Below are positions 11,270 through 32,059 of a stretch of 38,804 nucleotides of DNA, in pieces. The stretch covers positions 1 through 38,804 of the IMG/VR virus record IMGVR_UViG_3300044641_000655, one strand, 5' to 3'. How positions within the stretch are numbered: the first letter of the stretch is position 1; each line of letters starts with the position of its first letter. The position numbers and the translations under genes are program-made. The notes beneath the pieces were generated by a model. It ran no database searches. It was not told the origin of the DNA and was given only the letters and a program-made list of their open reading frames with translations. Source of the DNA: a virus.

Positions 11270-11667
11270 TGGCATCTAAGTCATCATTTGACTTAGACTT
11301 TGGCTATGGTCGCAAAGGCGAACAACTTGTAGATGAGTTGCTTACTGGTAACCTTACTGTTGAAGTCAAGCGTGACCGCAAGTGGTTCAAGACCAACAAC
11401 TTATATATAGAAACTGAATGCTTCTTCCAAAAGGTAGGAGACTGGGCACCCTCTGGGCTAGGTGTAACTGAGGCAGGGTACTGGGCATTTGTGCTACAGG
11501 AATCAACCCTCATCGTACCTACCGATGTGTTGCGCTATGCGGTAAAAGAATTTGGCAGAGAGATTAGTTGCTTCATCCCACCTAATCAAAGTAAAGGCTT
11601 CCTCATAACAGTAGATGACCTAATGACTGCGACGAGAAAATATAAAGATGACGATAGAGTGGAATAG
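11269..11667 (+). CDS. Putative PD-(D/E)XK nuclease-like protein
   Basis: 132 residues, start overlapping the preceding stop. The N-terminus FDLDFGYGRKGEQLVDELL (7-25) gives a conserved Glu18, and LTVEVKRDRKW (29-39) gives E32-V-K34; YIETECF follows with Glu48. This order is typical of compact PD-(D/E)XK enzymes, although the first acidic metal ligand is not certain. It could trim or nick DNA during replication or degrade host DNA. The 3' end overlaps the sigma-like gene by 20 nt. Confidence 0.6.
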   Translation: MASKSSFDLDFGYGRKGEQLVDELLTGNLTVEVKRDRKWFKTNNLYIETECFFQKVGDWAPSGLGVTEAGYWAFVLQESTLIVPTDVLRYAVKEFGREISCFIPPNQSKGFLITVDDLMTATRKYKDDDRVE

Positions 11668-12289
11668 AATCGAACGCTGGCAATACATAGTTGACTCGGT
11701 TGCTGCTGAGTATCACAAGAAGTTTGAGATGGATGCAGATGACATACGACAAGTTCTTTACCAGTGGTTTGTTGAACATCCTGTCAAGTTAGATACGTGG
11801 GAGGCAATCGGTGAGAAGGATGCAAAGAACCTTATCTATCGTAGCCTACGCAATCAAGCACTAGATTACTGCCAACACTGGAAGGCTAAGTCTGGTGGGT
11901 ATGAGACATCCGATTTGTTTTACTACGAGGCTGATATGGTTGAGGCTTTGTTGCCCTCTGTCTTGCGAGGTGAGTTCGGCGTGACTGCTAAGTTGAATCT
12001 CGGTAGGCCAGGCCGTCCCTCTGCACCTAACGAGGGTGGCAACCTGATGGCTATGATGATTGAGATTGACTATGCCTTCTGGAAACTGCCGAAGGATGAT
12101 AGGAAGATACTGTTCCTGCGTCACGCAGAGTCGCTAGACTTTGCAAAGATAGGTGAAGAATTAAATATGGGTAGTGAAGATGCTGTGCGTATGAGACACA
12201 AGCGTGCCATCAAGAAACTTATTCATAAGGTCGGTGGCTTCAAGCCATACAGAGATGATGACCTAGAACCACAGGAAGAAGACAAATAA
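11648..12289 (+). CDS. Sigma-70-like transcription factor
   Basis: 213 residues. The N-terminal helical part (residues 11-80, MDADDIRQVLYQWF and LIYRSLRNQALDYCQ) resembles sigma region 2; the C-terminal part (139-195) resembles region 4, with LPKDDRKILFLRHAESLDFAKI leading into the helix-turn-helix EELNMGSEDAVRMRHKRAI. A Gly/Pro-rich linker (118-132) separates them. The acidic tail is short. It closes the early plus operon just before a terminator. It probably redirects host RNA polymerase to later phage promoters; weak similarity of region 2 leaves some doubt. Confidence 0.65.
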   Translation: MTIEWNRIERWQYIVDSVAAEYHKKFEMDADDIRQVLYQWFVEHPVKLDTWEAIGEKDAKNLIYRSLRNQALDYCQHWKAKSGGYETSDLFYYEADMVEALLPSVLRGEFGVTAKLNLGRPGRPSAPNEGGNLMAMMIEIDYAFWKLPKDDRKILFLRHAESLDFAKIGEELNMGSEDAVRMRHKRAIKKLIHKVGGFKPYRDDDLEPQEEDK

Positions 12290-13089: not shown

Positions 13090-13503
13090 CTAATACCAAT
13101 TCCTACGCTGGGAATGTTTCCACGCCCTGCAAGGGGTATCGTATCGGTGTTCGATGTAGCGATAGGCATTAAGTATCTGTACTGCTGGGTCTTTGCTCTT
13201 CTCCTTCAACATCTGGGCTATGCCGAAGGCACTGCTACCCTGCTGGTTCTTGGCCAGATGGTCGAACCGACTCTCTTTGGTGAACAATAGGCGGATACAT
13301 TTACGTTCGTTTGCATCCCAATCCCATCCGTGTTGAGCGAATTTCATAGCCATCATTCTGTTGCGGTGCTTCTCTTCCATCGTAGCCTTGGTTCTTATCC
13401 TCGGCTTGACATCCACGTTGACATCTACTGTCACAGTATGGGTCAATGGTGCAAGGCTTGCCAGTAACACAATACCTATGACTATGAACGCTCTCTTTTT
13501 CAT
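13090..13503 (-). CDS. Membrane-anchored lytic-transglycosylase-like protein
   Basis: 137 residues. A signal-anchor spans about residues 5-20 (AFIVIGIVLLASLAPL). The C-terminal half has an SLT/lysozyme-like pattern: FTKESRFDH with candidate catalytic Glu77, GSSAFGIAQM at 89-98, then AYRYIEHRYDTPCRAW at 113-128. This fold cleaves glycan strands of peptidoglycan. It lies among early regulatory genes, next to whiB and far from the endolysin, so local wall remodelling or exclusion of competing phages is more likely than final lysis. The start overlaps the whiB stop. Confidence 0.68.
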   Translation of the reverse strand: MKKRAFIVIGIVLLASLAPLTHTVTVDVNVDVKPRIRTKATMEEKHRNRMMAMKFAQHGWDWDANERKCIRLLFTKESRFDHLAKNQQGSSAFGIAQMLKEKSKDPAVQILNAYRYIEHRYDTPCRAWKHSQRRNWY

Positions 13504-13844
13504 ACCTTAAGTTTACCAATCTTTCTTCGAACATCACGTCTATGTCGTGTCTCGTGTCGCACTGAGTTATGACTGACAGATAACCCTGCTAACAAGGCAC
13601 GCTCACCAGTGAGCAAGCCACCCCACACTGAGCCAACTCCGCCTACACTGATGACGTTCTCGCTCTCTAGCCCCTGTTGTAGGCACTCTGCTCTGACTGG
13701 ACACTGATGGCAGACTTCTATTGCTTGCACTGTGCGTAGCACGTGCAACTGTTGCTCGTCTACATAGATAGAGTTCTCGTAGTGCCAGAGGTCTGGGTCT
13801 GGATGTCCATTACACGCTGCTTCTTTGTGCCAATCGCGCTTCAT
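13500..13844 (-). CDS. whiB: WhiB-family iron-sulfur transcription regulator
   Basis: 114 residues. The four cluster cysteines are Cys11 (AACNGHPDPDLW), Cys45 and Cys48 (EVCHQCPVR) and Cys54 (CLQQG), followed by the family turn GSVWGGL at 71-77 and a basic tail (RHETRHRRDVRRK) for DNA contact. WhiB proteins bind the main sigma factor and change promoter choice; phage copies such as TM4 WhiB can interfere with host development and superinfection. It is diagnostic for an actinobacterial host. It overlaps genes on both sides. Confidence 0.92.
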   Translation of the reverse strand: MKRDWHKEAACNGHPDPDLWHYENSIYVDEQQLHVLRTVQAIEVCHQCPVRAECLQQGLESENVISVGGVGSVWGGLLTGERALLAGLSVSHNSVRHETRHRRDVRRKIGKLKV

Positions 13845-18242: not shown

Positions 18243-18326
18243 AATGCGCCAGAGTTATGCCGTTATTTTGGAGGCGTGATAGGTGTTATATTTACCCTCC
18301 TCCAGAGGGCGACTGGATGGGATGTT

Positions 18327-20195
18327 ATGGGACGCAAAGCAGGAAAGCAGGACCTCTCCAAGATAGAGGCCCAAGAACGGGTACTACTCCAACTGGAGCA
18401 GGGTAACACTATTACTGGTGCTATGGGTACCGTCAATCGTAATGACACAACTTTTAGACAATGGGTGATGCAATCACCTGAGTTCAAGGAACGCTCCGAG
18501 AAAGCCCGACTTGTGGGCAAAGGGGTCAAAGCAGACCTAAAGGAAATAAAGGACATTGCCTTTCCTGACTTCTGCGAGCAGTTCTTAGATACACCCCTCT
18601 TCGAACATCACCTCGACTGGTATGACTTAATCGAGGGTAGGGAGCCTAGGTGGATTCACCCATCTATGACCTACGAGCCAGGTGCCCTTAACCGTATCCT
18701 GATTAACGTACCACCTGAGCACGCCAAGTCTACGGTCATCACGACCAACTATGTCGTCCACAAGATTGTTACCAACCCTAACTCCAGAGTCATCATCGTC
18801 TCTAAGACCCAGGGTATGGCCCGTAAGTTCCTAGGGGCTATCAAGACCAGACTTTCACACCCAGCCTATACCAAGTTACAGGTGGCCTTTGGCCCTAATG
18901 GTGGCTACAAGGCAGATGCAACCCAATGGTCAGCCGATATGATTTACCTAGGCACAGGACGTGACTCTGGTGAGAAGGACCCTACGGTTCAAGCCCTAGG
19001 CTTTGGTTCACAGATTTACGGTGCACGTGCTGACTTGATTATCCTTGATGACGTTGTGATGGGTTCCAACGCTCACGAGTGGGAAAAGCAACTTGAGTGG
19101 ATTCAGAAGGAAGTTATCACTCGTCTGGGTCGTCACGGCAAGTTGGTTATCGTAGGTACCCGAATTGCAGCAGTAGACCTCTACAAAATGATTCGTGACC
19201 CAGGGCAGTGGACGGGTGGCAAATCCCCATTCACTTACTTTGCTCAACCAGCAGTACTAGAGTTTGACGAGAAGCCTGAGAACTGGAAGACGCTCTGGCC
19301 TAAGTCTAATATGCAAGAGAATGAAATTGATGGGGCGGATGAAAATGGACTTTTTCCCAAGTGGGACGGACCTTCTCTCTTTACGCGACGCTCTGAGGTC
19401 GCACCGTCAGTTTGGGCTATGGTCTACCAGCAAGAGGATGTCCAAGAAGATTCCATCTTCTCACCAACCTGCGTTGCAGGAAGTGTCAACGGAATGCGAA
19501 AGCGTGGCCCTCTCAAACCAGGGATTCCTGGCCACCCTAAGCACGCTGAGTCCACGTATACGGTAATCGGACTTGACCCTGCTATGGCAGGTGCTACAGG
19601 TGCGGTGGTTATTACATACAACCGAACCGATGGCAAGATTTATGTTTTAGATGCAGTCAATATGACAGAACCAACCCCAGCCAAGATTCAAGATTTAATT
19701 GAAGAATGGGTGGATAAGTACCGTCCTCAAGAACTGCGTATTGAAATCAACGCTCACCAGAAGGCTTACGCCTTGGATGAGAACTTAAGACAGTTTTTAG
19801 CCCAGTATGGGTGCCAGTTAAACTCACACTTCACTGGCAAGAACAAGTGGGACACATCTTTTGGTGTGGCATCTATGGCAAGCCTATTTGGTAACACCAG
19901 AGATGGACGCTTCCAGGATAACAACCTGATTGAACTACCAAGTAACGAAGGCTCTGAAGGCTTAAAGACTTTGGTACAACAGTTGATTACCTGGAAACCA
20001 GATACACGAAACCCCACAGATACTGTGATGGCTCTATGGTTTGCGGTAATCCGCGTCAGAGAGTTGATGCAACAAAGCACCAGAGTCGGTCAGTACCAAA
20101 CAAACCGATGGGCTACACGAGCACAGATGGCAAGTCGTGGTTCAATCAATTTAGACGAAACGTTTGCCTCACAATGGGCAGACCAATACGGTTAG
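18327..20195 (+). CDS. terL: Terminase large subunit with TerS-like N-terminal extension
   Basis: 622 residues from ATG 18327. A GTG at 18276 would give 639, but GGAGG lies only 1 nt before it; the start is therefore uncertain. Positions below count from the GTG. Residues 31-80 contain a helix-turn-helix-like segment (GNTITGAMGTVNRNDTTFRQ, then SPEFKERSEKAR) of the kind found in small terminases. Walker A is VPPEHAKST (145-153), Walker B LIILDD (254-259), motif III VGTR (293-296). The RNase H-like nuclease has Asp434 (IGLDP), Glu490 (RIEI) and Asp582 (NPTDTV). It cuts and pumps DNA into the prohead through the portal encoded next. Confidence 0.93.
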   Translation: MGRKAGKQDLSKIEAQERVLLQLEQGNTITGAMGTVNRNDTTFRQWVMQSPEFKERSEKARLVGKGVKADLKEIKDIAFPDFCEQFLDTPLFEHHLDWYDLIEGREPRWIHPSMTYEPGALNRILINVPPEHAKSTVITTNYVVHKIVTNPNSRVIIVSKTQGMARKFLGAIKTRLSHPAYTKLQVAFGPNGGYKADATQWSADMIYLGTGRDSGEKDPTVQALGFGSQIYGARADLIILDDVVMGSNAHEWEKQLEWIQKEVITRLGRHGKLVIVGTRIAAVDLYKMIRDPGQWTGGKSPFTYFAQPAVLEFDEKPENWKTLWPKSNMQENEIDGADENGLFPKWDGPSLFTRRSEVAPSVWAMVYQQEDVQEDSIFSPTCVAGSVNGMRKRGPLKPGIPGHPKHAESTYTVIGLDPAMAGATGAVVITYNRTDGKIYVLDAVNMTEPTPAKIQDLIEEWVDKYRPQELRIEINAHQKAYALDENLRQFLAQYGCQLNSHFTGKNKWDTSFGVASMASLFGNTRDGRFQDNNLIELPSNEGSEGLKTLVQQLITWKPDTRNPTDTVMALWFAVIRVRELMQQSTRVGQYQTNRWATRAQMASRGSINLDETFASQWADQYG

Positions 20196-20202
20196 GATAA
20201 CA

Positions 20203-21990
20203 ATGGCACTATCAATGGAACAGGTTGCAGCGCGAGTCCTGTCTATGCGCTATCGCAACAATGAGCGTGATGCTCGCAACCTTGACGTGCTCGCTGTCCG
20301 TAAAGGAAAGATTTCCGAAGTCTACCCAGACTTCTTCCCCGATGGCGTAGATGCAAACGTAGTAGCAAACTTTATTGACATTGTGGCACGTGACCTCTCT
20401 GAGGTTATGGCACCACTGCCAGCAGTCAATTGTTCTGCTGCAAACCAGGTATCAGATAAGGCACGTCAGTTCGCAGATAAGCGTACTCGTATTGCCTCTA
20501 ACTACTTCAATCACTCAGACCTCTCAGTACAAATGTACTCAGGTGCTGACTGGTACCTCACCTACGGTTTCGTCCCATTCATCATTGAATTAGACGAAGA
20601 ATCAAAAATGCCACGTATCCGCGTAGAAAATCCAATTGGGGCTTACCCAGAGTTTGACCGCTACGGACGTTGCGTTGCATTTGCGAAGCGATATGTAATG
20701 ACCCTTGGCGAACTTGTTTCACAATTTCCTGAGTATGAAAGAGAACTTCTTGGTGGCTTCGGCTACAAGCAGGACCTCAACGCTCAGATTGAAATGATTC
20801 GCTATTATGATGCTGACCAGTCAATCATCTTCCTTCCAACAAAGGATAACTTAGTTCTCTCAAAGGCTAACAATCCACTTGGCAAGATGATGATTGTTGT
20901 TGCACGTAAGCCATCTATTGACGGTGAACTTCGTGGACAATTTGATGATGTCCTTGGCATCCAGTTACTACGTAACCGCTTTGCACTCCTTGCTATGGAA
21001 GCAGCAGAGAAATCTGTTCAGTCTCCAATCGTACTTCCTAACGATGTTCAGGAACTACAACTTGGTGGAGACGCTGTTATCCGTACAGCAAACCCAGCAG
21101 GTGTACGCCGTGTGGAACTTAACATTCCAGCAGGAGCGTTCACCGAACAAGAAGTACTCAACCAAGAATTGCGTGTTGGCTCACGCTATCCAGAATCGCG
21201 TACTGGAAACATTGATGCCTCTATCGTCACTGGACAAGGCGTACAGGCACTTATGGGTGCATTTGATACCCAGGTTAAGTCTGCTCAAGCAATCTTTGCT
21301 GCAGCCCTACGCGATGTTATTAGCCTGTGCTTTGAGGTAGACGAAGTAATCTATCCAGAAGAAAAGACCATTCGTGGTGTTGACTCTGGTTCACCTTACG
21401 AAATCACATACCGACCAGGCAAGGACATCAAGGGCGACTACTCAGCAGATGTTCGCTACGGAATGCTCGCTGGTCTTAACCCTGCACAGGGTCTTATCTT
21501 TATGCTACAAGCACTAGGTGGCGGTCTTATCTCCAAGGATATGGCTATGCGTGAACTACCATTCACAGTTAACGTCACACAAGAACTTGAGAAGATTGAA
21601 ATTGAGCAGATGCGTTCTTCGCTTCTTGGTTCACTTACAGCCTTCTCACAGGCTATTCCACAAATGGCAATGCAGGGACAAGATGCCTCAGACGTGGTAC
21701 GTAAAATTGCTGCGGTTATCAAGGCTCGTCAAAAAGGTGTCGCATTAGAAGATGCCATTGAAGCCACATTCGCTCCGCAGCAACAAGTTCCTCCTGCTGG
21801 GGCACCACAAATGGTTGAGCAACCGTCCCCTGCTCCCGAAGGCGTTCCAGCAGGAGGCGCTCTTGCACCAGAAGGTATGCCAGCAGAGATGCCACCAGCA
21901 GAGCAAGCACCAGCGTTGCAAAGTTTATTGTCAAGCCTTTCAGGAGCAGGTACGGCTAACGCCTCTGTTCGTACAATACAGCGTAGATAA
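20203..21990 (+). CDS. Portal protein
   Basis: 595 residues from ATG 20203 (AGGA upstream); an upstream TTG would overlap terL. The gene follows terL, the protein has portal length, and the pattern fits: mixed N-terminal wing (DWYLTYGFVPFIIELDE), a central helical stem region (ILLRNRFALLAMEAAEKS-like) and a low-complexity Pro/Ala/Gln tail (residues 530-585). It forms the 12-subunit ring at the DNA-packaging vertex. Family assignment rests mainly on context and size. Confidence 0.85.
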   Translation: MALSMEQVAARVLSMRYRNNERDARNLDVLAVRKGKISEVYPDFFPDGVDANVVANFIDIVARDLSEVMAPLPAVNCSAANQVSDKARQFADKRTRIASNYFNHSDLSVQMYSGADWYLTYGFVPFIIELDEESKMPRIRVENPIGAYPEFDRYGRCVAFAKRYVMTLGELVSQFPEYERELLGGFGYKQDLNAQIEMIRYYDADQSIIFLPTKDNLVLSKANNPLGKMMIVVARKPSIDGELRGQFDDVLGIQLLRNRFALLAMEAAEKSVQSPIVLPNDVQELQLGGDAVIRTANPAGVRRVELNIPAGAFTEQEVLNQELRVGSRYPESRTGNIDASIVTGQGVQALMGAFDTQVKSAQAIFAAALRDVISLCFEVDEVIYPEEKTIRGVDSGSPYEITYRPGKDIKGDYSADVRYGMLAGLNPAQGLIFMLQALGGGLISKDMAMRELPFTVNVTQELEKIEIEQMRSSLLGSLTAFSQAIPQMAMQGQDASDVVRKIAAVIKARQKGVALEDAIEATFAPQQQVPPAGAPQMVEQPSPAPEGVPAGGALAPEGMPAEMPPAEQAPALQSLLSSLSGAGTANASVRTIQRR

Positions 21991-22004
21991 AAAGGCTGGG
22001 GACA

Positions 22005-22547
22005 ATGACAACGATTATAGGAATACAATACGAAAAAGATTGTGTTCTGGTTGCAGATAGCCAGACTACGGATGACAGTGGAAAGATTTTTACACATCCA
22101 GATATCAAGAAGATTTCAGAACGAGGACAGTTTCTAATTGCTGGCTCAGGTGAGGTTCTACCTTGCGATGTAGCACAACATATTTGGGAACCTCCAGTTC
22201 CTACTAAGCAAGACAAGCAAGACCTTTATCACTTTATGATTGCGAAGGTAATGCCTTCACTCCGCAAGTGCTTATCATCAAATGGTTTTAACTTTGATGA
22301 ACCTAAGACAGAGCAACGCTTTCAGTTTCTGATTGCAGTCTGTGGAGAAATCTTTGACATTGATGATGACCTATCGGTCAGCAGAAATGCAGATGGAGTT
22401 TATGCAACAGGTTCTGGCGCAGCGTATGCAATAGGAGCACTACACGCTGGAGCAGATGCCTACGAAGCAATGGATATAGCAGCAAGGGTTTCTGCTTTTA
22501 CTGCTCCACCTTACATATCAAAAATACAATTCAAGCATACTAAGTAG
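22005..22547 (+). CDS. Proteasome beta / HslV-type Ntn-hydrolase
   Basis: 180 residues, GGGGAC upstream. After Met removal the first residue is Thr (TTIIGIQYEKDCVLVADSQT), as in HslV and proteasome beta subunits. Asp17 (VLVADS) falls at the canonical place, Lys34/Lys35 (DIKKI) near canonical Lys33, then FLIAGSGE resembles the S1-loop GSG. Later GSGAAYAIGALHAG fits the conserved strand-helix turn. Such enzymes are self-activating threonine proteases. It lies directly after portal, where many phages encode the prohead maturation protease, so a capsid-maturation role is attractive; a soluble protein-turnover role is the alternative. Confidence 0.82.
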   Translation: MTTIIGIQYEKDCVLVADSQTTDDSGKIFTHPDIKKISERGQFLIAGSGEVLPCDVAQHIWEPPVPTKQDKQDLYHFMIAKVMPSLRKCLSSNGFNFDEPKTEQRFQFLIAVCGEIFDIDDDLSVSRNADGVYATGSGAAYAIGALHAGADAYEAMDIAARVSAFTAPPYISKIQFKHTK

Positions 22548-22557
22548 GGAGAAATAA

Positions 22558-23004
22558 ATGGCAGAAAACAGAGGCGGAATGCGCCCTACCGCACCGCAGA
22601 ACAACCCTGCTAACATTTCAGCAACTGGTGGCAATGGTCAGTCTGGTACACAACCAGCACGTTACATCTCAGGTATGCCTTATGGTCAAGGACAAGAGTT
22701 AATGCAACAGCAGCAAGCAGAAAAGATGGCTGGTCCAACACCATCAGCACCTTCTGCTCCATCACTTGCAGCACTTACACAGGGTCCAGCAATTACTCCA
22801 CTGAATGCACCAACTCAATTTCCAGATAGACCAATTGGGCAAAATGGTATTATTGATACAGCATCTTTGAATTTACCTCCAGCAGTTCCTGGCGAACTAG
22901 ATGATGCAATCCAAGCACTACAGGCTTTGTACCTACAGAATCCACGCAATGAAGATATTCGTCGCGTCTTTGAAACTATGGAGCGTGAAGGTAGGCTTGG
23001 ATGA
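22558..23004 (+). CDS. Pro/Gln-rich head-assembly protein, function unknown
   Basis: 148 residues, good site AGGGAG upstream. The N-terminal 100 residues are disordered (Gly, Pro, Gln, Ala, Ser); the C-terminal 35 form a helix (ELDDAIQALQALYLQNPRNEDIRR). It overlaps the next gene by 4 nt. The layout resembles scaffold or assembly-chaperone proteins, possibly a substrate of the adjacent Ntn-hydrolase; both are inference. Confidence 0.62.
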   Translation: MAENRGGMRPTAPQNNPANISATGGNGQSGTQPARYISGMPYGQGQELMQQQQAEKMAGPTPSAPSAPSLAALTQGPAITPLNAPTQFPDRPIGQNGIIDTASLNLPPAVPGELDDAIQALQALYLQNPRNEDIRRVFETMEREGRLG

Positions 23005-26000
23005 GTCAACCACCTGGAGTATCTAAGGATAAGAACGGTAACTGGACTCTTACTGGAGTTGAAGAGCGAAACATTACTCAGCAACAGGCCGACTATGAGG
23101 ACTTGGTAAAGTCTACTGGACAAATTCCAACACAGCAGGGTGTTAGCGCACTTAACCTTTTAAAAACAAATCCAGCCCTTTCTGCTGGTATGGTAACTGC
23201 GCTTGCTAAAAACAACGCTCTACCTCAAAGCAAATTGCTTGCTACTCTTGCACAGATTGACGCACAGACAAAAGCCCAGCGTGAACTTGATGCACAAAAA
23301 GAAGCACAGAAAGTATCTACTGAAAAGTTTCAGAAGACACTTCGTGGAAAGATTTGGACTGGCCTTAAGGGTGCAGTCCGCACAGGCTTTATTTATCCAC
23401 AGTCATACTTTGAGGCTATGGGTGGACTTGTTCGTCAAACCTGGTCTGGTGTTGCATCTCTAGGCTCAGAGATTCAAGCCGCTAAAGATGGTAAAGTTGA
23501 CTGGCTTACGGGTAACCCAATCAACAAGAATGACACACGCGAAAGCCTTGGTCTAAAAGATTTAGATGTTACAGATGCTATCAATCCTATGACGCAGTTT
23601 CGTCAAACAACTGGATACCAAGCACTGAAGCAATATGTTGATGAGGGACGCATTGACCTAGGTTCAGGATTCTTTGCAAGCGAAGAAGTTGGTGCAGGAT
23701 TCCTAGCCCGTGAAGAGCAGAAGAAGATTGCTAAAACTACATTCGTTGTAGATGGACAGACATACGAGCGTCCAGTTTCTATCTTTGACCCAATTACTTA
23801 CATCTACACAGGCGGAGATATCCAGTCAGAGAAGGCTCGACTAATCACCACTCTTGGAGATTTAGTTATCTCATTCAAGACTGACCCATTTATGGCTGTA
23901 TCAAAGTCTAAGAAGGCTCGTGATGCTGCTGCTTTAGCAGTACAGACTTCCAAGGGTGCAGAGTCAGCAAAGGCTCTCAAACAACTTACATACCTAGATT
24001 CTGTACTAGAAGAAAATGTTGCAGCAATTCGTGCAGCAGTTGATGATGTTAAGTTTGCAGATAACGCTACTAAGGCTGAGAAGCAAGTAGTAGTTCAGAA
24101 ACTTCTTGACGAGCAACTCAAAGTTGCAGATGAAGCAGATAACCTTGTATATAGCGAGACTGCTATTGCCGATTTTCTTAACAGCCCTAAGGGTATTGCT
24201 ATCTTTGACACTCTTGCTGATATGGACTTCAAGCAGATTTACAGCATCGGCAAAGGCTTAGGCCGTCGTGGTGGATTTACAGTAGAACAATCTAAGGTTC
24301 TTGCAGCAGCAAAGACTAGAGAAGAAGCAATGGCTGCTATCGCACCATATATCGCAGAAGGCTCAGTCGTTGCAAACGTACTTGAAGAAGGAACAAAAGT
24401 TGGTCGCGCCATCAAGGGTGCAGCAACAACCGTTGGTTCTAAGATTGGTCCAGTAACTAGCAAGGTTCTTGCTGGAAAAACCTTTGGTCTAAAGACTGCC
24501 ATCACTGGCAAGGCTGCCTCAGCGTATGCAAAGATGCCTTGGATGGGCAAGATGTATGAAGAGATTAACCGTTCCCTTGGAACAGTAATCGGTAATGGAA
24601 AACTTGTCCACTCTTCTGACGTAGATACTCTTGTCGAGACAGTAATCAACTATGCTCGTGCAGCAAAGGTGTCACCATTAGTCATTGATGACCTAGTAAA
24701 CTCAATCGTCTACGCTGACGATGTTTCTAATGCTGGCTACACAGCCAGTGCCAAACTTTTTGATGAGATTTTACGTGCCAACATTGACAGAACGCGAGTT
24801 GATGAGAAGGCACTTACAGACCTCACCCGTATTTTTGAAAACGGTCGCACAGAGATGGGCACCTACTGGGCACAGGCTCACCTTCGCGGTGCAAAGATTG
24901 ACTATATGCTACTTAATGGCAAAAAATTATCAATCTCTGGCCCACACGTAGACTCAGAATTGCTTAACTCGACAGTTTACTTCCCACCTATCAAGGATAT
25001 TCTCAACGAAATATCTGTTGCTAACCGATTGCTCAAGGCTGGCGTAGTTAAAGACAAGTTGGATTTCATAAGCAACAACGTATGGAAAAAAATTGTCCTA
25101 GTTCGCCCAGCATATGTTGTACGCAACATTGCGGAAGAGCAGATTCGTGTTTTGGCCAGTGGCCATATCTCATTCTTTAACAACCCACTGGCAGCAGTAG
25201 GTATGTGGCTTGGTCGTGAGACATCATCTAACCCAGCCCGTCGTTTGCTTGCTATGTTTGACCCATATAAGCACACACTTGCTGGTGATGGATTCAAACT
25301 TGGCAACACAGCAGATGAATTTGCTATGGAGATTGCAGCACACGATGCTCAATACGAGTATCTCAAGATGCTTCAGGACCGTGCTGTATCATCTTTCGAC
25401 CCTGATGTATCTAAGGTCGAAGCAATACGTGGATATGACCTACGTGCATTTGGACACCCACGTTGGTGGGAGGGTCTTGCTAACGAAATTCGCATCCTTC
25501 GTGAATCTACAGCAGCACGTGCAGTTGCATTTGCAAAACCTGGAGAAGAGCAGAAGGCTATTGATTTCTTGCTACGTGGTAAGGGTAAGGCAGAGTGGGA
25601 TAACTTTGTCAATGCTCAGCCAGTAGCCAACAGAGAGTTTTGGCGTAGCGATGAAGGTGTTCGTACATACCTTTTCACTGGCAAGAATAAGAACGATGAA
25701 AGCGTAGCCCTAGCAACACGTATCTTCCAAGTTGCAGGACGCGAAGGATTTTCTTCAGCAGCCATTCGTCAACTTATTGCTACTGGCAAGTATGAAGGTG
25801 CTGGAGTCAGCATAGTCGTACCAAGTTCTTTCGATACCGCAGCAAACTCTATTAACAATGCTGAAGAAGTAGGTAAAACTGGCAAGTCTCTTAAAGATTC
25901 TAACCAGATATTTGCACAGCAACTTCGTGAAGCATTCGATGGTCAGGGTGACTGGGAAGATATTCTCTACAAGATACCTAAGAAAGATATATCCATCAAG

Positions 26001-27887
26001 GATAAAGGCAATATCTTTGACCGTATTGCTGGCTCATTCTTTAATATCTCAACTAAGTTTGAGAAGCAGACAACTATGGGACCAGAATGGCGACAGTCAT
26101 ACTGGGATGCTATCTATAGCCTATCTCACGCACTAGATGCTGGGGCTGTGTCCAAGTTAGAGGATATGGCAAAGAAGTCTTTGTCTCCACTTAAGAGTTG
26201 GGATGGCAAGCCAATCGGTTCTGCTCACAGAGTATGGGATACTTTCAAGACTGCTAAGGGAACTGGCACAATTACAACAGATGAAGCCCACGCATATGCT
26301 TCTACAGTAGCCAATAAGCGTGTAGCAGAACTCTTCTATGATGCCTCACGTAAGCGTCTTATTGCCCATCAAGTACGCCTTATTGCCCCATTTGCTCAGG
26401 CTTGGGGTAACACAATTGGTGCTTGGAGCAAACTTGCTGCTAATAACCCTAACGAAATATACAAGATTGCTAAGAGTTTGCAGTGGCTAAGTAAGCCAGA
26501 ATCATCAAGCCTTTACACATTGACAGATGCCAAGGATATTTACGACCCAAATCAGGGGTTCTTCTACAATGACCCTGAAACAAATGAGCGTAGATTCTTT
26601 GTACCATTTATGTCAACTGGATTGAACTTCTTGTCTAATGTTACAGGTATGAAGGGTTTATCAACCCAGGGTCCTGTGGCATTCTCAACAACACCACAGT
26701 CCTTTAACTTCGCATTTGCAACAGGAAACATATTACCAGGGTTTGGTATTGGAGTCACACTACCGCTTACGGTGCTAGATAAGTTGGGTGTTAACCCACT
26801 TAATATGCTTCCACCAACAATGAGAGATAAAGTAAATAAGATTCTCTATCCATTCGGTGAGGTTGATACAAGCAGTGGATTCATAGAAGGATTCTTCTTG
26901 ACTCCTAACTACAGAAGATTGCTTGCTCCAATACTAGGTGAGGCAGCATATGGTTCAGCCTTTGCTCCTACCCTCAACTACCTAGCAACAGGTGGAGATT
27001 ACGACCTAGATAACCTTGATGACCAGGCTCGCCTACTCAAGGATGCAGATAGATTTGCAAAGATGTTTACAATGTTTAGAGGATTCTTCGGATTCTTCTC
27101 ACCATTCCCACTCACAATGGAGGCCCTGACACGTAAAGATGATGGAAGCGTTGCGCTTTCTTCAGCACTTTACAAGGACTTCCGTGAGATGGAGGTTGCT
27201 GCAGGTGGAGATAAGAACAAAGCCTATGCAGACTTCCTTGACCTATACGGTCCTAACTACATCTTTGCCATCATTGGATACACAAGCGGTTCAGCGACTA
27301 ACCTATACAGTTACGAACTCCTACGTGATAACCCAGATGTAGCAGATAAGTACCCAGATACCTATGGATATATCTACCCTGGTGGTGGACTATCACAGGA
27401 AATGATGCGCTGGGAGAAGAAGCGTGGTAATCGTACAGTCCTTAAGAAGGATGAGATTATCGAGAAGGTAACACGTATTCGTTACTTTGCTGCTAAAGAT
27501 AGATTGATGGCTCGTTCTGCTGCCGAAGGCTGGAGTAAAGACCAGTACGACGAAGCACTATCTTCACTAGGAGATAGTTATGCAGCACGTGGTTTGTCTA
27601 TCACAACGGATTACTTTAAGGATGCACGTGTTCAGGCACAGATTGATGGCATTCTTAAGGATGAAAGATTCTTAGATTCAGATGCAGTACAAGGTCTACG
27701 TGACTATGTATACCTACGCAAGATTGCGCTAGAGCGTGCAGGTCGTGACCCTAACAGCACACTTGCTGTCAAGGGTGCAGAACCACAACGCATCTGGTTA
27801 GCAGAACAAGCAAAGGGAATCCTTGCTAACAACCCAGAGTTCCAGAAGTTTTTCTATACATTCTTTAAGTCAGAATTGGAGGGCTAA
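23001..27887 (+). CDS. Giant internal / ejection virion protein
   Basis: 1628 residues, the largest gene, about an eighth of the window. It is mostly helical: an N-terminal coiled-coil-rich region (QIDAQTKAQRELDAQKEAQK), then blocks rich in Ala/Lys, a central region with WGNTIGAWSKLA and following, and hydrophobic FGFFSPFPL and GFGIGVTLPL segments near residues 1250-1380. No lytic or polymerase motif was seen. Size, composition and position fit the internal ejection proteins of short-tailed phages, which leave the capsid ahead of DNA and open a channel. An RNA polymerase of N4-type was considered and not supported. Confidence 0.65.
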   Translation: MSQPPGVSKDKNGNWTLTGVEERNITQQQADYEDLVKSTGQIPTQQGVSALNLLKTNPALSAGMVTALAKNNALPQSKLLATLAQIDAQTKAQRELDAQKEAQKVSTEKFQKTLRGKIWTGLKGAVRTGFIYPQSYFEAMGGLVRQTWSGVASLGSEIQAAKDGKVDWLTGNPINKNDTRESLGLKDLDVTDAINPMTQFRQTTGYQALKQYVDEGRIDLGSGFFASEEVGAGFLAREEQKKIAKTTFVVDGQTYERPVSIFDPITYIYTGGDIQSEKARLITTLGDLVISFKTDPFMAVSKSKKARDAAALAVQTSKGAESAKALKQLTYLDSVLEENVAAIRAAVDDVKFADNATKAEKQVVVQKLLDEQLKVADEADNLVYSETAIADFLNSPKGIAIFDTLADMDFKQIYSIGKGLGRRGGFTVEQSKVLAAAKTREEAMAAIAPYIAEGSVVANVLEEGTKVGRAIKGAATTVGSKIGPVTSKVLAGKTFGLKTAITGKAASAYAKMPWMGKMYEEINRSLGTVIGNGKLVHSSDVDTLVETVINYARAAKVSPLVIDDLVNSIVYADDVSNAGYTASAKLFDEILRANIDRTRVDEKALTDLTRIFENGRTEMGTYWAQAHLRGAKIDYMLLNGKKLSISGPHVDSELLNSTVYFPPIKDILNEISVANRLLKAGVVKDKLDFISNNVWKKIVLVRPAYVVRNIAEEQIRVLASGHISFFNNPLAAVGMWLGRETSSNPARRLLAMFDPYKHTLAGDGFKLGNTADEFAMEIAAHDAQYEYLKMLQDRAVSSFDPDVSKVEAIRGYDLRAFGHPRWWEGLANEIRILRESTAARAVAFAKPGEEQKAIDFLLRGKGKAEWDNFVNAQPVANREFWRSDEGVRTYLFTGKNKNDESVALATRIFQVAGREGFSSAAIRQLIATGKYEGAGVSIVVPSSFDTAANSINNAEEVGKTGKSLKDSNQIFAQQLREAFDGQGDWEDILYKIPKKDISIKDKGNIFDRIAGSFFNISTKFEKQTTMGPEWRQSYWDAIYSLSHALDAGAVSKLEDMAKKSLSPLKSWDGKPIGSAHRVWDTFKTAKGTGTITTDEAHAYASTVANKRVAELFYDASRKRLIAHQVRLIAPFAQAWGNTIGAWSKLAANNPNEIYKIAKSLQWLSKPESSSLYTLTDAKDIYDPNQGFFYNDPETNERRFFVPFMSTGLNFLSNVTGMKGLSTQGPVAFSTTPQSFNFAFATGNILPGFGIGVTLPLTVLDKLGVNPLNMLPPTMRDKVNKILYPFGEVDTSSGFIEGFFLTPNYRRLLAPILGEAAYGSAFAPTLNYLATGGDYDLDNLDDQARLLKDADRFAKMFTMFRGFFGFFSPFPLTMEALTRKDDGSVALSSALYKDFREMEVAAGGDKNKAYADFLDLYGPNYIFAIIGYTSGSATNLYSYELLRDNPDVADKYPDTYGYIYPGGGLSQEMMRWEKKRGNRTVLKKDEIIEKVTRIRYFAAKDRLMARSAAEGWSKDQYDEALSSLGDSYAARGLSITTDYFKDARVQAQIDGILKDERFLDSDAVQGLRDYVYLRKIALERAGRDPNSTLAVKGAEPQRIWLAEQAKGILANNPEFQKFFYTFFKSELEG

Positions 27888-27889
27888 CA

Positions 27890-29125
27890 ATGGCAGCAAC
27901 ACCAACACCAAAGCCATCATCAGCACCTAAAGCAGGAAGCCCAAGTGCAGATGCTACTAACGTAAGCCCTTCGGCTCTCGCTGCTGCAGGTACAGCACCA
28001 TTCGGTTCAAGCGGAACAAAGTCTGGTTTAGATGGTCGTCCAGTTGGTTCTCCAATTACGGTTGGTCAAGTACCAGCACAGTATCTTGGTGGAGAATTAC
28101 AACCTGCAGTTCTTATTCAAAAGCAAACTCAGTACACAGATACATCTGCTATGGATACCTTTGCTGGATTATCTAACCAAGACAAGGCAAACCTTCTTGC
28201 GAAACTTGCTCAGATTCCTGGTATCTATAAGCCAGGAACAGAGCCAACAGCGCAAAGCCTTATTGCTATGGGCACTGCAATTGTGCCACGTAAGGAAGAC
28301 ATCGCTGCACTCACCAAGGTAATGACATACTCTGACAAAGTTGGAGAAGATTACGAGTTAAGCGTTAATAAGTTCTACACAAACAAGGGTCTTGCTGCAT
28401 CATTCTTTAGTGTGCCAGGCAAGACTGTAGCGATGACCCCATCTGCTGCTCTCCTATCAGAACTTAACACCCAGTTTATGGACATCTTCAATGCTGCTCC
28501 AGACAAGAAGATTGCTGAAGCATATGCTAAGGAAGTTCAGAAACTTGAGGTTGCCCAGAAGGGTTCAATCAGCGCACAGCAGCGCGAAGACATTCGCCTA
28601 AAGTACATCCAGAATGCAGCAGCCACACGCTATAAGACAGCAATGGCAACTCCAGATACCAAGGATGATGCACTGCTTCAGGAAGGTGCACTAGGTATGG
28701 TTGTCAATCAGATACGCAATACCTACACAAACAATGGTATTCCTGTCAACAACGCAGAGATTTACAAGAAGGCTATTCAAGGTGTTCGTAGTGAACAGGC
28801 TTTGGCTAACATCATTAACGTAACTAAGCAACAGGCTAAGGCCCTATACCCAGCATTCAAGGACTTGATTGACCAGGGCGCAGAAGTATCTGACCTTGTT
28901 GCTCCATACGCCAGCGTCTACTCACAGATTTATGGCAAGCCAACATCTCAACTAAAGCCAGCAGACTTCTACGATGTTGCTTCTGGAGATAAGCCACTGT
29001 CACCTTCTGAATACAAGAAGATTCTTTACGCAAAGCCAGAGTTTAAGGATACTGAAACATACAAGAATACTAAGCAAAGCGCATTAACTGCCCTTGTTAG
29101 AGCATTCGGAATTGGACCTGCATAA
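27890..29125 (+). CDS. Internal virion protein (411 residues)
   Basis: A Pro/Ala/Ser-rich start (TPTPKPSSAPKAGSPS), then helical domains (SNQDKANLLAKLAQIPGIY; KKIAEAYAKEVQKLEVAQKG). The C-terminus is alpha-helical with PSEYKKILYAKPEFKDTETY. It follows the giant protein and precedes a third large helical protein, all packed with start-stop overlaps, suggesting one assembly. No family was recognised. Confidence 0.62.
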   Translation: MAATPTPKPSSAPKAGSPSADATNVSPSALAAAGTAPFGSSGTKSGLDGRPVGSPITVGQVPAQYLGGELQPAVLIQKQTQYTDTSAMDTFAGLSNQDKANLLAKLAQIPGIYKPGTEPTAQSLIAMGTAIVPRKEDIAALTKVMTYSDKVGEDYELSVNKFYTNKGLAASFFSVPGKTVAMTPSAALLSELNTQFMDIFNAAPDKKIAEAYAKEVQKLEVAQKGSISAQQREDIRLKYIQNAAATRYKTAMATPDTKDDALLQEGALGMVVNQIRNTYTNNGIPVNNAEIYKKAIQGVRSEQALANIINVTKQQAKALYPAFKDLIDQGAEVSDLVAPYASVYSQIYGKPTSQLKPADFYDVASGDKPLSPSEYKKILYAKPEFKDTETYKNTKQSALTALVRAFGIGPA

Positions 29126-30468
29126 TGGCAATGACCAAGGCGCAATGGGATAAGACGCAGAGCAAACTGCCACCTGAGGATAGAACCTCATATCAAGATT
29201 ACCTAGCCAGCGCACAGGCTGTAGAAGACACAGCACGTTCAATTGCTGCTACTCCTAGGACTACTGCTAAAGCAGCACCTGCTCCAGCAACAGTTGTGAA
29301 TCCTGTCGCAGCAGCAATCCCAGTTGCAGGTGTAGTTAGCACGCTTGGAGCAAGTGCAGCGCCAACTGCTGAACCAGTAAAACCAATGGTGCCACTAACA
29401 CCACAGCCTATTAACTATGCAACTACAAAGATTTATGACCGTATGGGTAACCTCGTTGAGGTATACACAGAAGGCCCACAGGCAGGTTACAGCGTAGCCG
29501 ATGGCTCACTTGTTATCCAGGGTGAAGCACCTAATACTAACCTTGGAAATATGATGTCTGGCCTCGGTGGTGGAGGAGCAGGTTCAGATAGATTCGCTGG
29601 GCTTACCGCCCTTCTATCATCCTATGGCGTTGATGGTATTGCCAATATGGTTGACAAGGTTATTGCCGATTATCCAGAGTCCGACGGAGATGAAATCCTT
29701 AACCTCCTTCGTTATGACCAACGCTACAACAAGCCATATATGGAACGTTTTGCTGGAAACGCAGCACGTCTCAAGAACAAGATGCCACTGCTTAGTGAGG
29801 ATGCTTACCTAAAGCAGGAACTCGGATACTCAAAGATGTTCGCATCTTATGGATTGAAAAATCTTGACAATCGTGAACAGTACACAAGACTTATTGCAGC
29901 AGACATAGATATTGATGAAGCAACACAGCGTGTATCTATGGCTTATGACAGAGTTCTCAAAGCAGAACCATCAACAATGAATGCGTTCCGTAGATTTTTC
30001 CCTATGCTTTCAAACCAAGATTTAGTATCAGCAATGCTCAATCCAGAAGAGCAGTTGCCAGCCCTTGAGCGCAAGGTGCAGTCAGCAGAGATTGGCGGAG
30101 CAGCGCTGCGACAGAGCCTTGTTGCAGAACTTGCAGATACAAGTTACAAGTCTTCTATGTATTCAAATGTACAGGCTGGAACCATCGGTGCTGGAACAAT
30201 TGAAACTGCTGGAGTAACCCCTGCAACAGCAGTTGCTAAGTATGAAAAGATTGCTACCGACCTTCCAACTATGGAAAAACTTAGTTCCATCTATGGCTCA
30301 ACACTTGACCAGTATGGACAGAGAGAAGCAGAGCAAGCAGAAATCCTTGGCCTTGCATCTGCAAAGCGCAAGAAGACAGCACTTATCGCTCGTGAAGAAG
30401 CGTCATACCAAGGAAGTGCTGGCACAACAAGAGCAAGTTTTGGCAAACCTCGCCAAGGCACAATCTAA
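29125..30468 (+). CDS. Internal virion protein (447 residues)
   Basis: ATG overlaps the preceding stop (TAATG). The first 100 residues are Ala/Pro/Thr-rich; the rest is helical (DEATQRVSMAYDRVLKAEP; LEEQLPALERKV-like), ending in a basic tail (GTTRASFGKPRQG). It is the third member of the suspected ejection set ahead of the scaffold gene. No enzyme motif is visible. Confidence 0.6.
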   Translation: MAMTKAQWDKTQSKLPPEDRTSYQDYLASAQAVEDTARSIAATPRTTAKAAPAPATVVNPVAAAIPVAGVVSTLGASAAPTAEPVKPMVPLTPQPINYATTKIYDRMGNLVEVYTEGPQAGYSVADGSLVIQGEAPNTNLGNMMSGLGGGGAGSDRFAGLTALLSSYGVDGIANMVDKVIADYPESDGDEILNLLRYDQRYNKPYMERFAGNAARLKNKMPLLSEDAYLKQELGYSKMFASYGLKNLDNREQYTRLIAADIDIDEATQRVSMAYDRVLKAEPSTMNAFRRFFPMLSNQDLVSAMLNPEEQLPALERKVQSAEIGGAALRQSLVAELADTSYKSSMYSNVQAGTIGAGTIETAGVTPATAVAKYEKIATDLPTMEKLSSIYGSTLDQYGQREAEQAEILGLASAKRKKTALIAREEASYQGSAGTTRASFGKPRQGTI

Positions 30469-31111: not shown

Positions 31112-32059
31112 ATGGCATATGTATCAACAGCCTCCGATAACCTCGGAGGAACCGCTGGTGGTGCTGGTCTAGTACAAAAGGCTTATGACCGTCTCTTGGA
31201 GTTCGCACTCCGTTCAGAGCCACTCATTCGTTCAGTTGCTGACAAGCGCCCAACAAATCAATCAATCCCAGGTTCAACTGTAGTTCTACAGCGCTACGTT
31301 GACCTTTCAGCAGCAACAACACCACTCACAGAAACAACAGACCCAGATGCAGTAGCAATGTCTACACCAACATCTGTAACTATTACTCTTGCTGAGTATG
31401 GTAACTCTGTTCTTGTTACACGTGCTTTGGAACTCTTCAGCCTTGCTGATGTAGACCCAGCAATTGCTAACATCATTGCATTCAACCTTGCAGATTCAAT
31501 TGACGCTGTTGCTATGACAGAACTTCGTCAGGGCACAAACGTAATCTACTCAGGTTCAACTGCAACATCAACAGCAACAGTTACTGCTGCTGCAACCATT
31601 TCGTCTGCAAACATCCGTCGCGCAGTTGCAAAACTTCGTGCGAATAAGACAACAGCACGCAAGGGTTCACTCTACTGGACTGGTATTCACCCAGAAGTTT
31701 CACACGACCTTCGTGCTGAGACAGGTTCAGCAGGATGGCTTCTCCCTAACCAGTACGGTTCTGCACAGGACCGCATCTGGGCTGGAGAAATCGGCACATA
31801 CGAAGGTGCATACTTCGTTGAGTCTCCACGTTTGTACAATGCTACAGACGGTTCAGGTTCTGCAAAGGTGTACCGCACCATTCTCTGCGGACAGCAAGCA
31901 CTTGCTGAAGCAGTGGCAGAAGAGCCACACGTAGTTATCGGACCAGTCGTTGACCGCTTGATGCGTCATCGTCCAATGGGCTGGTACGGAGTTCTAGGTT
32001 TCAAGCGTTACCGCGAAGAAGCACTATTCCGTATTGAATCAGGTTCATCAATCGCTTAA
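31112..32059 (+). CDS. Major capsid protein, HK97 fold, N4-gp56-like
   Basis: 315 residues, strong AAGGAAAT upstream. Segments typical of the N4-gp56 family are present: LLEFALRSEPLIRSVADKRP near residues 29-48, VITLAEYGNSVLVTRALEL-type strand, ADSIDAVAMTEL, and the C-terminal GVLGFKRYREEALFRIES. It builds the icosahedral shell. No N-terminal delta domain is obvious, so proteolytic maturation, if any, would remove little; this matters for the role of the Ntn-hydrolase. Confidence 0.85.
   Translation: MAYVSTASDNLGGTAGGAGLVQKAYDRLLEFALRSEPLIRSVADKRPTNQSIPGSTVVLQRYVDLSAATTPLTETTDPDAVAMSTPTSVTITLAEYGNSVLVTRALELFSLADVDPAIANIIAFNLADSIDAVAMTELRQGTNVIYSGSTATSTATVTAAATISSANIRRAVAKLRANKTTARKGSLYWTGIHPEVSHDLRAETGSAGWLLPNQYGSAQDRIWAGEIGTYEGAYFVESPRLYNATDGSGSAKVYRTILCGQQALAEAVAEEPHVVIGPVVDRLMRHRPMGWYGVLGFKRYREEALFRIESGSSIA

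Follow-up and report, generated by a model that had tools for sequence, protein, structure and literature searches.

The question raised by this locus is why a phage would carry a proteasome-type Ntn-hydrolase directly behind its portal gene and upstream of its scaffold and capsid genes. We use the term window for the whole stretch of DNA that was analysed, IMG/VR record IMGVR_UViG_3300044641_000655, which is 38,804 bases long and contains terminase, portal, scaffold-like, capsid, DnaB-like helicase, primase, sigma factor and WhiB genes. A sequence-only reading had proposed a threonine protease in the slot where phages usually encode a serine-type maturation protease, and had named a host origin or interference with a host proteasome as further possibilities. 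To our knowledge, phage homologues of the proteasome are known, none of them with a demonstrated function. The features that the argument needs are the following.

11648 to 12289, plus strand: sigma-factor-like gene
13500 to 13844, minus strand: WhiB-like regulator, a marker of actinobacterial hosts (PF02467, 9.3e-12)
18276 to 20195, plus strand: terminase large subunit (phrog_38, 5.5e-67)
20164 to 21990, plus strand: portal protein, left neighbour of the Ntn gene (phrog_104, 2.9e-30)
22005 to 22547, plus strand: proteasome-type Ntn-hydrolase of group I (HslV/BPH/AAH-like), 180 aa, from PHROG, profile and model
22558 to 23004, plus strand: 148-aa gene (phrog_8200), right neighbour of the Ntn gene and start of the hypervariable island
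22716 to 30450: hypervariable island with genes for 1628, 411 and 447 aa
30542 to 31075, plus strand: scaffold-like protein (phrog_7813, weak scaffold matches), common to siblings with and without the Ntn gene
31112 to 32059, plus strand: major capsid protein, 315 aa (phrog_1357, 8.7e-81)

The open reading frame was present where the sequence-only reading had put it, directly behind the portal gene, and starts with MTTIIG at an ATG that is the first start codon of the frame. Upstream of this ATG the frame is open for only about 6 more codons, leaving no room for a propeptide. It was found that the protein matches PHROG 1040 ('peptidase HslV family', a family label only) with an E-value of 1.2e-26; as a single sequence it scored weakly against Pfam Proteasome (18.6 bits, cut-off 22.4), and a profile of 30 members matched HslV (4.7e-13) and BPH (1.8e-12) in the PDB. 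An AlphaFold model, for which 26 related sequences served as input, reached a pLDDT of 93.8 and showed the alpha-beta-beta-alpha fold of the proteasome, with the closest overlay on BPH (Z 18.8, rmsd 2.6, 164 residues, 24% identity), followed by HslV (Z 17.8) and by proteasome beta, Anbu and others (Z 16-17). Both the profile search and the structure prediction thus place the protein inside the Ntn-hydrolases, as had been proposed from the letters, with HslV and BPH as the closest structures. The model is compact, with helices H1-H4 (H2 at residues 74-92), a final strand at 171-176 and no H5, and the protein has the features of group I, the group of HslV, BPH, AAH and CPH, being compact and lacking both a propeptide (for which HslV is the exception in the group) and a C-terminal S12/H5.

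When the protein was aligned residue by residue with HslV and BPH, T2, D18, K36 and G49 fell on their Thr1, Asp17, Lys33 and oxyanion Gly, and among 30 phage homologues with 21-97% identity the first three are invariant and G49 is nearly so. This bears out the N-terminal Thr and the Asp17 that had been picked out earlier. As for the Lys that had been placed at 34/35, K35 is the conserved one, which becomes position 36 when the Met is counted. The two GSG motifs also proved to be meaningful: the first contains Gly49 at the oxyanion-hole position, and in the second Gly136 and Gly138 are both invariant. S137 is listed as a further catalytic residue. The median dN/dS of the gene was 0.074, below that of the portal (0.117) and the major capsid protein (0.153), and the gene is under strong purifying selection. 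The family, profile and fold matches and the low dN/dS put the identification far beyond chance. Sequence and model together indicate a threonine-type hydrolase of the HslV/proteasome fold with an intact active site, which is apparently active.

Over 91% of its length, the window's portal protein shares 89% identity with its counterparts in OX376640 and OX376641. These are the Planktophila phages LanE43AprE7 and LanE43AprF5 (E7 and F5), for which the isolation host was 'Ca. Planktophila' LanE-43, a member of the order 'Ca. Nanopelagicales' (PMC10202952). Both cultured phages carry the Ntn gene, and genes of the WhiB and sigma-factor kinds have been reported in both. More distant relatives are found among Streptomyces phages (Beephvirinae), with 44% identity in the portal. 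Judged from these siblings and from its WhiB gene, the phage very probably infects Actinobacteria, in agreement with the sequence-only reading. The capsid protein of E7 is 399 aa long, with an insert of about 80 residues near the C-terminal third, compared to 315 aa in the window (L082:17567-18766).

Comparison of the window with a sibling contig (L001) revealed 92.5% DNA identity over positions 20191-22715, almost nothing in common beyond this, and similarity again from 30451 onwards, with flanks that are 83-92% identical. This places the Ntn gene on the left margin of a hypervariable island that measures about 7.7 kb. A comparable 8-kb island between E7 and F5 has been described (PMC10202952), and the similarity between these two phages stops just past the start of the gene after the Ntn gene. 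As the gene borders an island with a 1628-aa gene, the enzyme might process ejection proteins or other internal virion proteins encoded there, or might itself be packaged and injected. There is a precedent in SPN3US, in which a phage protease is known to cleave ejected head proteins (PMC7411985, PMC10052503). However, one family of large island proteins, with at least 60% identity, was found together with the Ntn types T0, T1 and T2 and also with none, which argues against a dedicated pair of protease and substrate. Similarly, the window and L001 have Ntn proteins with 97% identity and yet entirely different large proteins. A dedicated pairing of the enzyme with its large neighbour was rejected on the finding of the shared family, and the reading as a whole, with island proteins processed or the enzyme itself injected, seems unlikely.

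Another reading, which we regard as improbable, is that the protein uses the same active site as a specific protein ligase or an amidohydrolase, in the manner of connectase, and is not a general peptidase. Enzymes of this sort do occur in the Ntn clan and among the proteasome-like proteins (connectase, PMC8665760), whereas the compact model has no evident insertion of the kind that marks connectase, and the nearest solved structures, HslV and BPH, are those of peptidases.

The role in capsid maturation was judged by a comparison of siblings. A prohead protease would act while the head is being assembled and cut scaffold, capsid or portal, in the way of the serine-type enzymes, and the protease fold, the place of the gene behind the portal and upstream of scaffold and capsid genes, and the lack of any other recognised protease among the profiled open reading frames are all in line with this. 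We examined portal-anchored IMG/VR contigs (best 80 matches per query), and among the matches listed there were 194 distinct portal contexts, including two Streptomyces phages, with the Ntn gene behind the portal in 159 and absent from this place in 35, a ratio that is not a prevalence. In none of the 194 listed contexts was the gene found elsewhere on the fetched stretch. Four records of 36.8-40.5 kb that lack it behind the portal gave no match anywhere, and all six control records did match. Six Ntn types together with 'none' required 20 changes when mapped onto the portal tree; presence and absence alone required 5, at least 3 of which are forced by well-supported branches. Portal pairs with 95-96% identity had Ntn proteins that were only 35-36% identical (36% in a pair with 96.3%), and in another pair, 94.7% identical in the portal, the gene was present in one phage and absent in the other. 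In sibling pairs the recombination break lies within the last 50-120 bases or so of the portal gene.

The head proteins did not follow these exchanges, and the Ntn gene is not conserved with the capsid genes: its type changes while the capsid stays. The sibling L289 (G206), a record of 36.8 kb without the gene, has a capsid protein with the same ends as that of the window and 92% (91.7%) identity to it. The scaffold proteins of the siblings without the gene are of similar length and 69-75% identical to the window's, with 69% in L289. Two Streptomyces phages, Fabian and Dennebes, whose portal and capsid proteins are homologous to those of the window, have no Ntn match in their whole genomes, and short open reading frames occupy the slot. 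Nor does the capsid protein carry an additional N-terminal domain, either one specific to the family or one that differs between phages with and without the enzyme. As the gene is absent or swapped where the capsid is the same, the capsid can be built without the enzyme, and the prohead-protease role suggested by the sequence-only reading is very unlikely. Loss in siblings may still leave room for a task that is specific to a lineage. In siblings without the gene an open reading frame of 73-86 aa and of no known family stands behind the portal (L093:4886-5143, L147:5217-5444 and similar loci), and the L093-type frame resembles an 84-aa frame that follows the Ntn gene in E7-like phages.

On the host side, no proteasome-family gene was detected in LanE-43 or in seven further host-group genomes, with positive controls. 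Two proteasome subunit genes in tandem were present in 5 of the 201 genomes of the order Nanopelagicales (G037, G062, G112, G136 and G162; loci L252-L259), and the other 196 had no gene of the family, which suggests that streamlined members of the order have lost the proteasome. Neither ARC nor HslU was found above the cut-off in seven host-group genomes including LanE-43, whereas control genomes passed in both searches; the partial matches of 431-446 aa in the HslU search look like ClpX. Likewise, no HslU was recognised among the profiled open reading frames of the window. With no proteasome in the known host there is nothing to block, and there is no canonical unfoldase partner. Blocking or joining the host proteasome through mixed rings or as a decoy, which a proteasome-type subunit in an actinobacterial phage had brought to mind, was thus rejected on these host genomes and, as the active site that a decoy would not need has been kept, is extremely improbable.

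With a probability of about 60%, we consider the protein to be a group I threonine protease of the AAH-like kind, which has an accessory role and operates inside infected cells with no unfoldase dedicated to it. From its sequence and the rules of Met-aminopeptidase, removal of the initiator Met would expose Thr1 directly, with no propeptide to be cleaved. The subunits would probably form a ring with the active sites enclosed inside it, as in the structural kin BPH and HslV, and late in infection this ring would cut peptides or loosely folded proteins of host or phage without a dedicated unfoldase, as has been proposed for BPH. The gene would behave as an accessory cassette on the island's left flank, under strong purifying selection, repeatedly replaced by distant versions and lost in some phages. 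For an enzyme that is kept active, swapped and sometimes lost, a role in protein turnover or against variable factors of host or competitors is a better fit than capsid maturation. The near-constant place among late head genes in the phages that carry the gene could point to a virion-linked job, and the 73-86 aa frames in the slot of the phages that do not carry it could be functional substitutes. PADLOC gave no defence-system match. We tentatively propose, as a possibility that we hold to be doubtful, that a self-sufficient phage proteasome without unfoldase, in hosts whose own proteasome has been lost, is a late counter-host enzyme, the versions of which are shuffled at a fixed slot to match variable targets in hosts or competitors.

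The hosts of this lineage belong to one of the most abundant bacterial orders of freshwater, and since the cultured phages E7 and F5 carry the gene, its role is testable. The analysis also removes a prohead-protease label that was plausible but is probably wrong.

To place the protein among its relatives, host-class genomes were searched with profiles, and 35 of the 395 had one chromosomal homologue each. These actinobacterial proteins score about 100 bits with a profile made of slot sequences only, and are probably the AAH of a 2021 survey. The slot-sequence profile gave no match in 121 genomes of the host order, in a run without a positive control, and a degenerate-pattern scan of the genome contigs found no relatives of the Ntn protein. 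In a tree with some long branches, the freshwater phage proteins formed a well-supported branch of their own, apart from the actinobacterial chromosomal proteins and from those of Psychrobacter, Pantoea and Vibrio phages. The host origin that the sequence-only reading had named is thus possible at long range only, as the nearest bacterial kin found are on the chromosomes of other Actinobacteria, with none in the 121 genomes of the host order. Other phages have their homologue outside the head module, by ribonucleotide reductase genes or in early, accessory or nucleotide-metabolism regions, which also speaks against a role in capsid maturation. When the neighbourhoods of the chromosomal homologue in six genomes were compared, no universal partner gene appeared. 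This homologue (L396-L401) occurs in many actinobacteria with large genomes, and in one genome it is near Spo0M, aldo/keto reductase, TerD and AIM24 genes.

Compared to known systems, the protein is not PrcB: it scored 12.5 bits against a cut-off of 191.9, has no propeptide, and is flanked by the portal and the 148-aa gene instead of an alpha subunit. With HslV (ClpQ) it shares the fold and the Thr1/Asp17/Lys33 arrangement, yet it stays far below the HslV equivalog cut-off (17.7 against 157.75 bits), and HslU above the cut-off is missing from the hosts. BPH, the beta-proteobacterial proteasome homologue, is the best structural match and apparently works without an unfoldase (PMC8665760), although the hosts differ and the sequence identity is low. 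PPH, the proteasome homologue of phages and their hosts, is, like the Ntn protein, a phage-borne proteasome-like subunit of group I, one of the two described together with AAH in the 2021 survey (PMC8665760). PPH has about 140 residues and no helix H2 (PMC8665760), whereas the Ntn protein is 180 residues long and includes H2 in its model, and identity with PPH was excluded on size and on this helix. AAH shares with the Ntn protein the compact group I build, the lack of a propeptide and the occurrence in phages and Actinobacteria; the nearest bacterial kin are the actinobacterial chromosomal genes, yet the proteins from the phage slot form a separate branch. As the survey found no Actinobacteria-specific phages encoding AAH (PMC8665760), the present findings extend the genes for proteasome homologues to phages of Actinobacteria, and if the assignment holds, the present lineage and DSL-LC01 would be Actinobacteria phages with AAH.
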